Shown here: one piece after another, positions 16,154-22,469 of the stretch
How positions within the stretch are numbered: position 1 is the first letter of the stretch
Layout: each line of letters starts with the position of its first letter
NCBI RefSeq assembly: GCF_016820635.1
Contig: NZ_WSFU01000119.1
Location: 1 to 64,000 of the forward strand
Length of the DNA: 64,000 nucleotides
Direction of reading: 5' to 3'
Origin: Anaeromonas gelatinilytica
Lineage (GTDB): Bacteria; Bacillota; Clostridia; Tissierellales; SIT17
Notes under the pieces: model-generated
What the model was told of the DNA's origin: nothing
What the model saw: only the letters and a program-made list of their open reading frames with translations
Database searches by the model: none
Made by a program: the position numbers and the translations under genes

Positions 16154-17698
16154 TTATGTGGCATATTCTATAGATCTAGTTTCTCGAATAACATTGACTT
16201 TGATCTGTCCCGGATAATCAAGTTCACTTTCTATTCTTTTAACTATATCTCTAGAAATATGAATAATATCTAAGTCACTTATAAGATTTGAATCTACTAT
16301 TATTCTAACTTCTCTACCTGCTTGAATTGCATAGGATTTTTCTACACCTTCAAAAGAATTTGCTATTTCTTCTAATTTTTCTAGTCGCTTAATATAAGAT
16401 TCTAATGTTTCTCTTCTAGCACCAGGTCTAGCTGCTGATATCGCATCAGCTGCTTGTACTAATATAGCTTCTATTGTAGTTGGCTCTACATCATCGTGAT
16501 GAGCTTCTACTGCATGAATAACATCTTTATTTTCTTTATAGCGTTTTAATATATCTACTCCTATAGCAACATGTGGACCTTCCACCTCATGATCTACAGC
16601 CTTTCCAATATCATGAAGTAATCCAGCTCTTTTTGCTATTCTTACATCTGCTCCTATTTCTGATGCAATAATACCTGCTAAATGAGATACTTCAATTGAA
16701 TGTTTCAATACATTCTGTCCATAACTTGTTCTATATTTTAATCTACCTAATAATTTAATTATTTCTGAATGAAGTCCGTGAATACCCGTATCAAAAGTAG
16801 CTTGTTCTCCTACTTCCCTAATATGATTATCTACTTCTTTTTTTGCTTTTTCAACCATTTCTTCAATTCTAGCAGGATGTATTCTACCATCAGAAATAAG
16901 TTTTTCTAATGCAATTCTAGCTGTTTCTCTTCTTATAGGATCAAATCCAGATAAGATTACAGCTTCAGGGGTATCATCAATAATAAGATCTATTCCAGTA
17001 AGGGTTTCGAGAGTTCTTATATTTCTTCCTTCTCTACCAATAATTCTCCCTTTCATTTCATCATTCGGTAAAGAAACTACAGATACAGTCGTTTCAGCTA
17101 CATGATCAGCAGCACATTTTTGTATTGCATAAGATAAAATTTCTCTTGATTTCTTTTCTGCTTCTAATTTAGCCTTATTTTCTATTTCTTTAATCATTAT
17201 TGCTGCTTCATGATTAATTTCTTTTCTTATGTCATTAAGCAATAAATTTTTAGCTTGTTCACTAGTTAACCCAGAAAGTCTTTCTAATTCATTAATCTGT
17301 TTTTGATATAGATCATTAACTTTCTTTTCCTTATTTTCTATATTTTTTACTTTCTTATTTAATGAATCTTCTCGTTTTTCTAATGTATCATTTTTTCTAT
17401 CTAGTGATTCTTCTTTGTGGATTAACCTTCTTTCAAGTTTTTGTAATTCATTTCTTCTTTCGCGATTTTCTTTCTCAACTTCGTTTCTCATTTTGTGAAC
17501 TTCTTCTTTTCCTTCAATTAGATATTCTTTTTTAGAAGTTTCAGCTTCTTTTATACCCTCTTGAATTATTCTTTTAGCTTCTTCTTCAGCAGTTCTAATC
17601 TTTCCTTCAGCAATCACTTTTCTTATATATATACCAATAAAAACACCTATTATTAGTGTAATAATTGCTATAAATACTGGGATTATTCCGTCTAAAAT
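16154..17698 (-). CDS. rny: Ribonuclease Y (likely AUU start)
   Basis: Membrane-anchored endoribonuclease that starts mRNA decay. N-terminal transmembrane segment [21 protein letters not shown], long coiled coil (about 40-190), KH domain ([19 protein letters not shown]) and HD domain with [12 protein letters not shown]. The frame is open up to ATG at 17773 (539 residues), but that ATG has no SD and follows a terminator hairpin. A perfect AAAGGAGGTG (17705-17714) lies inside the frame, 8 nt before ATT at 17698; starting there gives 514 residues and the usual RNase Y N-terminus (LDGIIPV...). The in-frame GTG at 17707 overlaps the SD. I therefore prefer ATT, while noting that a 25-residue N-terminal extension is possible. 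Confidence 0.9.
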
Positions 17699-17773
17699 TG
17701 GAAGCACCTCCTTTACTATTAATTTTTCAAGTTTCGTTTCATTTTTTATCAATGGACTATTTAAATAAATCAT

Positions 17774-17948: not shown

Positions 17949-18608
17949 TTATTCTTGAATTTTACTTACTTTACTAGTTATATTATTTAATTCAACTCTA
18001 TATGAAATATCAGCTATAGAAGCTAAATGATTATTATGAGTAACCATTATTATTTGTCTATTAAACATTTCAGAAACTTCTTTCAAAAATTCAGAAACAT
18101 TAAATATATAATCTTCACTTACGTGTTTTGCAGGTTCATCTAATATTAATGGGCCATAAATTTCTGGTTTATGAATATGAAGAAAAGCAATTCGTAATGC
18201 TAAAGAAATAATATCTATAACGCCTCCACCTCTAGATTCTTCAGGCTTAGTTTTTATTATTTCATCAGATTTTGTGACGACATAAAATTCTGCACTAGGT
18301 TTTCCATATGCTTCTTGTATATCTATTTCAAATTCTATATTTTCATCAAATATGTATTGAAGACAATTAGTTACTAAACCTTCTATTTGTTTCTTTGCCT
18401 GTTCCCTTGCATATTCACTAGTTTTTTGCAATAAAATATTTGTTTTTTCTAAAATATCAATATTTTGTTCTATAGATTTTATTTTTTCTCTTTTTATATT
18501 TACTTCTTCTTCAATAGCTTGTTTTTTTCCATTTTCTAAAGAATATATGCTTCTTAATTCTTTAATATTTTCATTAAGTTTTCTTTTATTATCCATATTA
18601 AAATTCAT
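17949..18608 (-). CDS. Rad50/SbcC-like ATPase, C-terminal half
   Basis: 219-residue protein that looks like only the C-terminal part of a Rad50/SbcC ATPase. Residues 1-75 are coiled coil. Residues 125-140 (SRGGGVIDIISLALRI) match the ABC signature region; Walker B/D-loop GPLILDEPAKHVSEDY is at 152-167; switch histidine H191 in MVTHNNHLASIAD. There is no Walker A. It would need the Walker A protein encoded at 18908-20350 to build a working composite ATPase site. The ATG has AGGTGA upstream. It is in the same frame as the preceding 86-residue gene, separated by a TAG and seven sense codons. Similar split Rad50-like proteins occur in some phages and Clostridia; the cellular role here is inferred as DNA end processing. 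Confidence 0.8.
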   Translation of the reverse strand: MNFNMDNKRKLNENIKELRSIYSLENGKKQAIEEEVNIKREKIKSIEQNIDILEKTNILLQKTSEYAREQAKKQIEGLVTNCLQYIFDENIEFEIDIQEAYGKPSAEFYVVTKSDEIIKTKPEESRGGGVIDIISLALRIAFLHIHKPEIYGPLILDEPAKHVSEDYIFNVSEFLKEVSEMFNRQIIMVTHNNHLASIADISYRVELNNITSKVSKIQE

Positions 18609-18629
18609 AATATCACCTAAATTATTTAA

Positions 18630-18890
18630 CTATTTTTTTGAATATTCATTTAAAATATCCATGGGAAGTAATTCTTTGGCTTTATTAAATAAATTTGATA
18701 TTTCATTTTCTAATTTATTTATTTCATTTTCTAATTCATCAGGATCTATACCATATTCTTTCAATTCAGATATTAATTCCTCTTGTTGTTTATTTAATTG
18801 CTCTAATCTTGCTTCCGATTTATACTTTAAATTTTTTGCTCTATCTAAATTATCCTTTAATTTGGTTAATTCTTTTTCATGTTTTTCCAT
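18630..18890 (-). CDS. Small coiled-coil protein of the split Rad50 locus
   Basis: 86 residues, almost wholly charged heptad-like coil (KDNLDRAKNLKYKSEARLEQ ...) with a GIDPDELENEI break in the middle. No catalytic motif. It has its own SD (AAAGGAG) after the TAG of the Walker A gene, in a different frame from it. It shares a frame with the C-terminal-half gene: only one TAG and seven codons lie between them, so it could be a separated piece of the descending coil. It may join the two ATPase halves; this is inference from position and sequence type. Confidence 0.7.
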   Translation of the reverse strand: MEKHEKELTKLKDNLDRAKNLKYKSEARLEQLNKQQEELISELKEYGIDPDELENEINKLENEISNLFNKAKELLPMDILNEYSKK

Positions 18891-18907
18891 AATTAAAAAC
18901 TCCTTTT

Positions 18908-20350
18908 CTATTTTAAGGTATTAATAATTTTTTTCATATCATCGTTTGATATTTTATTAAAACATAAAGGGCATTTTTCAATATTTTCAAGTAGTTCTTT
19001 ATATTTTTTCAATAATTGATTATGTTTTAATTTCTCATTATTAAATATTTCTGTAGTTTTAGATATTTCTGTATTTATTTTTTTAAATTTAACAACCAAT
19101 AAATTTAATTTATTAAGTTTATTTATTTTATCTGATATTTCATTATATAAATAGTTAACTTCATTAATAAATTTAAATTTATTAATATATGTTTTGCCTT
19201 TTTTAATATTAAAATTTATTTTGTTAAAGTTTTTACTATAGACAATTAAATCATTTAATTTTTTTGATTTATATTCAATTTTTAAATATATATTATTTAA
19301 ATCATTAATATTATCTAATCTAAAATTAATAGATTTTATTTTTTTAATTTCTGCTGTTAGCATATTATAATTATTATATTTAGAAATTAAGCTTTTATTA
19401 ATATTTAATTTTTCTTCTAGAATATTAATTGAGTTTTCAACATAATATAAGTTTTTAAAATTATTTAAAAGATAAGTATTTTTACTTTTTAATTCTTTAG
19501 TTTCTAATAATTTTATTTTTAATTTATTTAGTCTTTTGACTTTATGAATTTTATTATCTAAATCTAATATATCTTTCATGATAGTATCAATTTTAGATAA
19601 TTTAAATATGATTTCTTTATATTTTTTTATTTCCTTTATATTATTATAATATTTCTTTTTTATAAGAATTAATTTTGATAAAGAATTCTCTTTATAATTA
19701 ATGGCTTCTTCTATTGTTTCTAATTTTACAATTTTATTTTCTAAAGATTTTAAATAATCATATTTAGATAATTTTAATTCTAAAGTATCTATATCATCTT
19801 TTAAAGAATTATTTTTAATAGTAAGACTCCTTGTATCTTTAATTGTATTTTGAACTGCTTTATCTACCACATGAACTCCTACTAATCTGCCAATAGCATT
19901 TGCTTTTATAGAATTTTTTTGTGAAAGTAAAAAAGGTCCTTCTAATTGTTCACCAATATTTATTGATTTTGATTCTTTACTATCTAAATTTATTTTTTTT
20001 ATATTAAGTTTTTCAACAATATCTATTGGAGGATTAGTTCCAAATCCTTCATATATTTCTTCACTACCATTTTTACATATATATACATATATATTTTTAC
20101 TTTTTGAACGTAATCTTTTTACTTTCTCTCCTGTATTAAAAGTTATAATTACACTAACTTCATTTTCTCCATGTCTTATAAAAAAGTCACCTAATGGTTC
20201 ATTATACAATACCCATTTTATAGCTCTTATTATCGCAGTTTTACCTTGGTCTGAAGGTCCTACTATTACATTTAGACCATTTATAAAGTCAATCTTGGTA
20301 TTCTTATGGGATTGAAAATTATTTATTTCTACATTAGTTATATATTTCAT
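18908..20350 (-). CDS. Rad50/SbcC-like ATPase, N-terminal half with zinc hook
   Basis: 480-residue SMC/Rad50-type N-terminal half. Residues 1-40 hold ITNVEINNFQSHKN and Walker A GPSDQGKT (31-38); the Q-loop region is near QLEGPFLLSQ (about 135-145). Residues about 165-455 are an Asn/Lys/Ile/Leu-rich coiled coil. The zinc-hook motif CPLC is at 460-463, only 17 residues from the end, so the protein stops just beyond the hook and has no Walker B or signature. These motifs are supplied by the gene at 17949-18608. Start ATG is 3 nt after the stop of the Mre11-like gene, indicating coupling. The coil here is longer than the coil available in the two downstream proteins. Confidence 0.82.
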   Translation of the reverse strand: MKYITNVEINNFQSHKNTKIDFINGLNVIVGPSDQGKTAIIRAIKWVLYNEPLGDFFIRHGENEVSVIITFNTGEKVKRLRSKSKNIYVYICKNGSEEIYEGFGTNPPIDIVEKLNIKKINLDSKESKSINIGEQLEGPFLLSQKNSIKANAIGRLVGVHVVDKAVQNTIKDTRSLTIKNNSLKDDIDTLELKLSKYDYLKSLENKIVKLETIEEAINYKENSLSKLILIKKKYYNNIKEIKKYKEIIFKLSKIDTIMKDILDLDNKIHKVKRLNKLKIKLLETKELKSKNTYLLNNFKNLYYVENSINILEEKLNINKSLISKYNNYNMLTAEIKKIKSINFRLDNINDLNNIYLKIEYKSKKLNDLIVYSKNFNKINFNIKKGKTYINKFKFINEVNYLYNEISDKINKLNKLNLLVVKFKKINTEISKTTEIFNNEKLKHNQLLKKYKELLENIEKCPLCFNKISNDDMKKIINTLK

Positions 20351-20353
20351 ATA

Positions 20354-21346
20354 TCAATCCTCTTTCCCTATTTCTATTTGAGCTTCCTCAATTCTTTTAA
20401 TTGCTTCAGATTTTACTTTTTTATCAATATTATCAGCAATACTTAAATCATTTAAAACATGATTTATATCTAATTTATTAAAATCTTGTGATGCTTCTAC
20501 GGATTGTTTGAAATAAATCATTTTTTCATTTTTAAACATATTTTTTTCAATAACACTTCTATCTAATATTTCTTCTCCATTTTTTGCTGATTCAAGATAA
20601 TAAAAATCTAATTTAATATCTTTTTGTATATTTATAATTAAAACTTTAGGTATTCTTTTAATTTCTTTTAAACTATTTGTTATTCTTATAAGACTACCTG
20701 GATTTATAAAAAACTTATTATTAAATTCCTTTATTCCAAATCCAGAATGATAATGACCACATAAGGTAATATCTGCTTTTGTTTCTAAAATATCATCTAT
20801 CAAAGTATAAGGTATTCCTTTTATAAATGGTTTATCTAATAACATACCATGAACTAAGTGTATAGCATAATTAACATTTTCATCTTTCTCATTTATTATA
20901 TATGAAGCTTTATTTCTATCCGAATCTATTCCATATTTATAAGGTGCACCAGTAAGTTGAACTTTTATATCATCTTTTTCTAAAATGATTTTTTCTTTTT
21001 CATTAATAAGTTTTAATAATTCAATACCATCAAATAATCCCAACATAGTTCTATGTAATGTATTTGGATTATGACCATAAAGATCATGATTACCAGCTAT
21101 AGCATAAATAGGAACTTTTATATTATTTAATATCATCGCAAACTTTCTAACTACAGATGGAGAAATATCTGGTCTATCAAATATATCTCCTCCATGCAAA
21201 ACAAAATCAATATTTTTCAAATTAATTATATTTACAATTTCATTAAATTTTCTTTCTAAAGTTTCTAGAATATTATCTTTTCTGTTCTTTGGAGTTGTTC
21301 CTCGTATATGTGTATCTGTAAAATAAAGTATCTTCAAATCATACAC
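20354..21346 (-). CDS. Mre11/SbcD-like metallophosphoesterase
   Basis: 330-residue calcineurin-like phosphoesterase, probable nuclease partner of the adjacent Rad50-like proteins. Metal-binding motifs are complete: D11 and H13 in YFTDTHIRG, D54 in HGGDIFDRPD, N86-H87-D88 in AGNHDLYG, H in LVHGML, and the GHYH motif in LCGHYHSGFG. After residue about 230 comes a capping/helical region (VEASQDFNKLDINHVLNDL) likely used for ATPase binding. It is shorter than typical SbcD (about 380-400). It is the first gene after recA on this strand, beyond the recA terminator. Nuclease activity is inferred from the intact ligands. Confidence 0.85.
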   Translation of the reverse strand: MYDLKILYFTDTHIRGTTPKNRKDNILETLERKFNEIVNIINLKNIDFVLHGGDIFDRPDISPSVVRKFAMILNNIKVPIYAIAGNHDLYGHNPNTLHRTMLGLFDGIELLKLINEKEKIILEKDDIKVQLTGAPYKYGIDSDRNKASYIINEKDENVNYAIHLVHGMLLDKPFIKGIPYTLIDDILETKADITLCGHYHSGFGIKEFNNKFFINPGSLIRITNSLKEIKRIPKVLIINIQKDIKLDFYYLESAKNGEEILDRSVIEKNMFKNEKMIYFKQSVEASQDFNKLDINHVLNDLSIADNIDKKVKSEAIKRIEEAQIEIGKED

Positions 21347-21388: not shown

Positions 21389-21438
21389 ATCTAATAAATA
21401 AAAAAGACTTCCAAGGAAGTCTTTTTTATTTATTAGAT
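21389..21438 (-). terminator. recA terminator, long palindrome
   Basis: 24-nt perfect arms around an AA centre (core AAAAAGACTTCC / GGAAGTCTTTTT). It includes the recA stop codon (21426-21428). Confidence 0.85.
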
Positions 21439-22469
21439 TTTTTATCGTCTTCCTTATTACTTTTTTTATCTTCTTTAGAATTATTTGTAGTTAATCCATG
21501 ATATTCTCTAACTTTTCCTTCTATTTCTTTAGTGATTTCTGGATTTTCTTTAAGGAAATCTTTTGCATTTTCTCGTCCTTGACCCAATCTATGATCTTTA
21601 TAACTATACCATGAACCAGATTTATTAATTATATCAGAATTAGCAGCCACATCTAATATATTACCCTCTTTTGATATTCCTTCACCATACATTATATCAA
21701 ATTCTGCTTTCTTAAAAGGTGGAGCAACTTTATTTTTGACTACTTTGACTCTAGTTCTATTTCCTATCATATTATCTCCTTGTTTCAAGGTTTCAATTCT
21801 TCTAACATCTAATCTAACAGAAGAATAAAACTTTAAGGCTCTACCACCTGGAGTAGTTTCAGGATTACCAAACATAACTCCAACTTTTTCTCTTAATTGA
21901 TTTATAAAAATTGCAATAGTATTTGATTTTTTAATGGCTCCTGCTAATTTTCTAAGAGCTTGAGACATTAGTCTAGCTTGAAGACCTACATGACTATCTC
22001 CCATTTCACCTTCAATTTCGGCTTTAGGTACTAAAGCTGCAACAGAATCAATAACAATTATATCTATTGCTCCACTTCTAACTAAAGCTTCAGCAATCTC
22101 CAGTCCTTGTTCTCCAGTATCTGGTTGAGATACAATTAAATTTTCTGTATCCACTCCCAACTTTCTTGCATAAACTGGATCTAAAGCATGCTCTGCATCT
22201 ACAAATGCTGCTGAACCTCCTGATTTTTGAGCTTCAGCAATAGCATGGAGTGCTACTGTGGTTTTACCTGAAGATTCAGGACCAAATATTTCAATAATCC
22301 TTCCCTTTGGAAGACCTCCTATACCTAAAGCAATATCTAACTCTAATGAGCCCGTGGATATAGAAGCAATATTCAATTTAGATTCTTCTCCGAGCATCAT
22401 AATAGAACCTTTTCCGAATTGTTTTTCAATCTGATTAATAGCCATTTCTAACGCTTTTTTCTTTTCCAT
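21426..22469 (-). CDS. recA: Recombinase RecA
   Basis: Strand-exchange ATPase and LexA co-protease. 347 residues; Walker [10 protein letters not shown] at 63-71, Walker [15 protein letters not shown]2-region [20 protein letters not shown]. The C-terminal tail is lysine/aspartate-rich ([14 protein letters not shown]). Upstream are a consensus promoter and a LexA box. Only a weak SD stands next to the ATG; a strong AGGTGA lies beyond a small hairpin (22479-22494). cinA is upstream on the same strand, the common cinA-recA order, and the Rad50/Mre11-like genes follow. Confidence 0.98.

Follow-up and report, generated by a model that had tools for sequence, protein, structure and literature searches.

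In Anaeromonas gelatinilytica, a Rad50/SbcC-type ATPase is encoded by three genes beside the gene for an Mre11-like nuclease, as the first-pass annotation had proposed and as motifs, profile searches, predicted folds and conservation support. It is very probable that the four products, namely the nuclease M, the N-terminal ATPase subunit N, the small coil protein k and the C-terminal subunit C, form a multi-subunit Mre11-Rad50 complex filling the role of SbcCD, with no biochemical or complex-structure evidence for it at present. The assembly in trans of N and C, each contributing one half of the ABC ATPase head, is strongly supported but not shown biochemically. Such a split Rad50 is also more general than that annotation had supposed, being present in a large clostridial group and in many phages.

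The window analyzed is a stretch of 64,000 nucleotides, in which the four genes follow one another as M-N-k-C on the minus strand, between recA (21426..22469, minus strand) upstream and rny (16154..17773, minus strand) downstream. M (20354..21346) starts with GTG and encodes 330 amino acids, N (18908..20350) encodes 480, k (18630..18890) encodes 86 and C (17949..18608) encodes 219, all of them on the minus strand, and the intergenic gaps are 3 nt for M/N, 17 nt for N/k and 21 nt for k/C. M and N share one reading frame and k and C share another; k as well as C has a start of its own, preceded by an SD-like AGGAG or AGGTG. The 86-residue coil gene between N and C, the separate starts of k and C and the different frame of N, all pointed out previously, are thus plainly seen in the sequence. 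A terminator-like hairpin between recA and M is recA's own.

M is a calcineurin-type nuclease subunit of the Mre11/SbcD kind. It matches Pfam Metallophos (8.6e-16) and contains all five phosphodiesterase motifs of the Mre11/SbcD nucleases (DTH, GGD, GNHD, HGM and GHYH), and it stays under the curated SbcD cut-off, with 33.3 bits against TIGR00619 where 77.65 bits are needed. In loci of hosts and of phages alike, members of the M family are neighbors of N or C.

N carries the N-lobe (residues 1-157) with the Walker A motif GPSDQGKT at residue 31, an arm at about residues 159-456 and the motif CPLC at residues 460-463 (codons at 18970..18981, minus strand), followed by a tail of only 17 residues, the Walker A, the CPLC hook and the length of the tail being as had been described for this protein. 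In profile searches against the Protein Data Bank (PDB) it matched archaeal Rad50 (3aux, 6.4e-18), and its terminal part matched the solved Rad50 hook (6zff_A, 1.9e-6; 1l8d_A, 2.5e-6). The AlphaFold (AF2) model of N had a pLDDT of 80 with a pTM of 0.39, so the path of the arm is undefined, and its fold matches in the PDB were Rad50 N chains, the best being 9a9j_A. N matches PHROG 16465 (E 7e-63). The CPxC motif is invariant in an alignment of 56 N sequences and stands close to the C-terminus in nearly all full-length N proteins. Together with the matches to the Rad50 hook structures, it marks a Rad50-type CxxC hook at the tip of the N arm, its binding of zinc being inferred.

The C subunit has the sequence SRGGG, the Walker B motif LILDEP and an H-switch, in a C-lobe that stands behind a helix of 85 residues. 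Its AF2 model (pLDDT 93.5) matched the Rad50 C chains 1f2u_B/D and 9a9j_B and also SMC heads in the PDB, and its profile matched a Rad50 C-terminal chain (3qkr_B, 3.3e-16) and PHROG 15167 (E 1e-63). These matches are complementary, N finding Rad50 N chains and C finding Rad50 C chains, with both chains of 9a9j and of 1f2u among them, which supports an ATPase assembled in trans; this kind of assembly has precedent, because in both PDB entries each lobe is a polypeptide of its own, in 1f2u within one assembly.

That a separate protein of 219 residues bears the Walker B motif was correctly noted in the first-pass annotation, but its assignment of SRGGG as the ABC signature did not stand, since a glycine aligns with the signature serine. 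In an ungapped alignment, LSGGE of P. furiosus Rad50 is opposite RGGGV of C, with the first glycine at the position of the serine. The canonical signature LSGGQ/E with its serine is absent from C, and in the chromosomal copies there is no serine in either register. All 70 of the chromosomal C proteins with a match have [R/K]GGG, while the SbcC of relatives has LSGGE. In yeast and P. furiosus, dimerisation and hydrolysis are lost when the signature serine is changed to arginine (PMC7049730), so with this serine missing the ATP contact or its regulation must differ in the split family. As far as can be judged from sequence, the ATPase cycle may differ from that of Rad50.

The k protein consists of two helices with a conserved break, LGVxPE, in an alignment of 38 sequences, and corresponds to PHROG 18563 (E 4e-10). 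Its profile gave only coiled-coil noise against the PDB, and the match to an SbcC-like PHROG was weak (E 0.11), hence its homology to the descending arm of Rad50 is not established; its place in the set rests on alignment, PHROG membership and co-occurrence with the other genes.

The conservation of the split was studied in an order-level sample of 60 genomes and in 399 genomes sampled across the phylum. In the first, N, k and full-length C were each found in 27 of the 60 genomes, and the set of genomes was identical for the three; in the second, C was present in 64, N in 65 and both in 63. The gene order next to recA, for which a search had been suggested, was found across several bacterial orders: among the named genomes scanned, recA-M-N-k-C-rny occurs in Tissierellales, Peptoniphilus, Caloramator, Thermosediminibacter, Tepidanaerobacter, Natroniella and Fuchsiella. 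No ORF with both the N and the C profiles was detected in any of 187 loci. The nearest relative of the window copy is that of Anaeromonas frigoriresistens (82% over 413 columns). Some further copies were observed at other kinds of location. A congener has a second, divergent set of N, k and C (G003:C13:91790-94481), whose C is 40% identical and which probably belongs to a prophage or another mobile element; an Alkaliphilus megaplasmid bears M-N-k-C (L002:5006-8525), and relatives of C are found on other large Firmicute plasmids.

C stands alone as folD-C-rny, with M-N-k at another locus, in ten genomes of the Acetivibrio/Pseudobacteroides type; in Pseudobacteroides cellulosolvens both loci are about 1.09 Mb apart on a single contig of 6.88 Mb. 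N was found in all 11 genomes of a set that joined those with no N near C in the initial profile scan to genomes added for comparison, and the ten with unlinked C are among these 11. The permanence of C beside rny after M-N-k moved off could suggest that C, perhaps with k, has an extra function tied to RNase Y or to envelope-anchored RNA decay and completes N only part of the time. We hold this to be highly improbable, as C, which has no Walker A, cannot make up a whole ABC ATPase by itself, no C without N was found in the 60-genome set, and adjacency to rny may be just the ancestral position.

Phages also carry N, k and C as separate pieces, in orders that vary between N-k-C-M and recA-N-M-k-C. 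An ORF of 1168 amino acids lies between N and k in one phage locus (L107), and a gene for an AP2-domain protein in Bacillus phage vB_BboS-125. In the latter phage we also observed an Mre11-like ORF, 37% identical to M, which is unannotated in the record (L001:8956-9936). The unlinked C, the intervening phage genes and the joint retention of the pieces imply that N, k and C must work as separate proteins. Programmed frameshifting into one chain was rejected on the same grounds, namely the unrelated genes between the phage pieces and the unlinked C in ten genomes. The finding of three ORFs in place of the single one present elsewhere, in a very AT-rich region (19% GC in 18001-20000, around the N arm), could also be understood as the remains of a single-chain sbcC, decayed or mis-sequenced, whose pieces have ceased to function as one unit. 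This explanation hardly deserves any credit, and a pseudogene was rejected, since the three ORFs keep conserved motifs through whole orders and phages, unrelated genes separate the phage pieces, M-N-k and C are at separate loci in ten genomes, and all the pieces are retained together in the relatives. The recurrence of N, k and C as separate ORFs puts the split far above chance and likewise bears out the earlier judgment that a sequencing error was unlikely.

The relation with single-chain SbcC, called with TIGR00618 at E<=1e-15, points in the same direction as the job proposed for the complex. SbcC was detected in 24 of the 60 genomes, none of them shared with the 27 that have the split set (Fisher p=1e-9), and the 9 genomes with neither include several that are incomplete. 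In the phylum sample, SbcC was found in 174 of 399 genomes, and it appeared together with C in only 3 of the 64 C-bearing ones, with 27.9 expected (p=9e-14). Both p-values are overstated because species are not independent, and the exclusion is partly phylogenetic; families f4 and f8, in turn, each contain both states, SbcC and the split set. Five SbcC-bearing relatives lack the cassette, and in them recA and rny are adjacent wherever the contig is long enough. No SbcC was found in the set of 11 Acetivibrio-type genomes, and the split genes themselves do not score as SbcC at this threshold. Of the three genomes where SbcC and the split set coexist, two (G160:C4 and G420:C1) show a reported in-frame TAA within a split gene.

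The first-pass annotation had named as adverse evidence a second intact sbcCD elsewhere, together with loss or frameshift of the three genes in close relatives. Neither appeared: no second sbcCD was detected in the A. gelatinilytica genome with TIGR00618 at E<=1e-15, and in the close relatives the three genes are intact. The only similar pair (L187:3398-6759) consists of an SMC-like ATPase of 745 amino acids, in which no CPxC was seen, beside an SbcD-like nuclease of 375 amino acids, which we provisionally take to be YhaN/YhaO-like.

The arm of N (about 298 residues, helices 159-456 in the model) is much longer than the about 165 residues in k and C, where the descending side is made of the 85-residue helix of C plus around 80 residues of k; the estimate of about 290 ascending versus about 160 descending residues thus holds. 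In 118 N proteins the spacing between Walker A and CPxC is stepped, with clusters near 260-275, 300-317, 381-383, 426-430 and 473, many of the phage rows being near-identical copies. Autocorrelation along the arm gave peaks at 47 and 94 in the chromosomal and the long phage N, and at 47 in the short phage N, and no 47/94 peaks were detected in single-chain SbcC controls. Judged from these sequence periodicities, the N arm is a tandem repeat of 47 residues with variable copy number, the part coding for it in the window being approximately 18985..19876 (minus strand). While the repeat number varies, k stays at about 77-90 residues and C at about 200-230. The repeat largely explains the surplus length of the N arm over k and C, a surplus that may be accommodated by pairing of N with N, by folding back or by several k on each arm; the unusual shape suggested earlier for the complex is a conjecture.

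The kinship with phages that had been inferred in the first-pass annotation is supported by the existence of one PHROG family for each piece, by the same pieces in phages and by a tree. In this tree of N-lobe plus C (118 rows), all the chromosomal copies make one clade (support 89), which midpoint rooting places within the phage copies; the true root is unknown and SHL-type support is moderate. The simplest reading would be a single capture from a phage, with the root unknown. As a separate observation, a phage-encoded recA is often found just before the split set (L138-L142, L158-L167, L185), which mirrors the chromosomal recA-M-N-k-C. The set could be a recombination nuclease domesticated from a phage and serving mainly, for instance, to control phages, plasmids or replication intermediates rather than for general repair, and the nesting among phage copies, the frequent neighborhood of phage recA and the copies on large plasmids agree with it. 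We consider this unlikely without dismissing it, given that the fixed, vertical-looking recA/rny locus across several orders and the exclusion with SbcC fit a housekeeping replacement, and that the root of the tree is unknown.

Gene fusions point independently to a joint action of M, N and C. M is fused to N in two viral contigs (769 aa, L109:3067-5376; 707 aa, L112:3632-5755), with separate k-like and C genes downstream. In three genomes of family f68, with G+C of 63-68%, a single ORF of 684-700 amino acids (L220:2652-4754, minus strand; L221:1264-3318, plus strand; L222:2683-4770, minus strand) contains M at residues 1-320, the N-lobe at about 330-490 and the C-lobe at about 500-680. These ORFs have no arm, no CPxC and no k, and their interpretation as full N-k-C fusions was rejected in favor of a coil-less M-N-C. 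In the tree they form a long branch within the chromosomal clade, so the loss of the arm looks secondary, although long branches are unsafe.

In the four-subunit complex that we propose, the helix preceding the C-lobe would pair, at the head, with the initial stretch of the N arm, k would bind along the N arm, and the CxxC of the arm would be bridged through zinc to that of a second N, all of which is inferred. From the known mechanism of Mre11-Rad50, ATP-driven closure of the head would control M, and the complex would tether and trim DNA ends or hairpins for RecA. A broader idea, which we put forward only tentatively and which could well prove wrong, is that Mre11-Rad50 needs neither one chain nor equal arms: N would set the reach through 47-residue modules while k and C remain constant, k would be an exchangeable clamp of the arm, and one family would have been reduced to a single armless and hookless nuclease-ATPase of 690 residues.

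Textbooks present Rad50 as a single chain, and the communication between its arm, hook and head is a matter of continuing debate. In the split set it is divided at the hook and a second time within the descending arm, with one half relocated in some genomes, the arm varied in fixed steps and both arm and hook lost once, in such a way that these variants are natural constructs for asking which parts serve tethering and which serve cutting. The split set also explains the apparent absence of SbcC in many clostridia, and through it a repair system of the chromosome is connected with recombination genes of phages. No description of the arrangement was found in the literature on split SbcC/Rad50, on this gene order or on clostridial SbcCD, subscription journals and preprints being thinly covered.

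Compared with known systems, the three proteins are the same as those of PHROG 16465 ("exonuclease"), 18563 (unknown) and 15167 ("ATPase"), carried by Bacillus phage vB_BboS-125, but these are catalogued separately and not as parts of one Rad50, and the chromosomal replacement role is unnoted. The B. subtilis-type YhaO/YhaN is similar in having a calcineurin nuclease beside an SMC-like ATPase, whereas the YhaO/YhaN-like ATPase of A. gelatinilytica is a single chain at a separate locus. With bacterial SbcCD (TIGR00618/TIGR00619), the split set shares a nuclease plus a hooked SMC-like ATPase and, by exclusion, the same genomic role; the SbcC of the relatives checked differs as a single chain of about 1000-1090 amino acids with LSGGE and one central CPxC. 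Archaeal Rad50-Mre11 (P. furiosus, M. jannaschii) gave the best PDB matches in sequence and fold, and resembles the split set in both head lobes, Walker A and B, the CxxC hook and the Mre11-type partner. Whereas the archaeal Rad50 is one chain with matched arms and LSGGE, the split set has three chains, a 47-residue repeat in N only and RGGGV.
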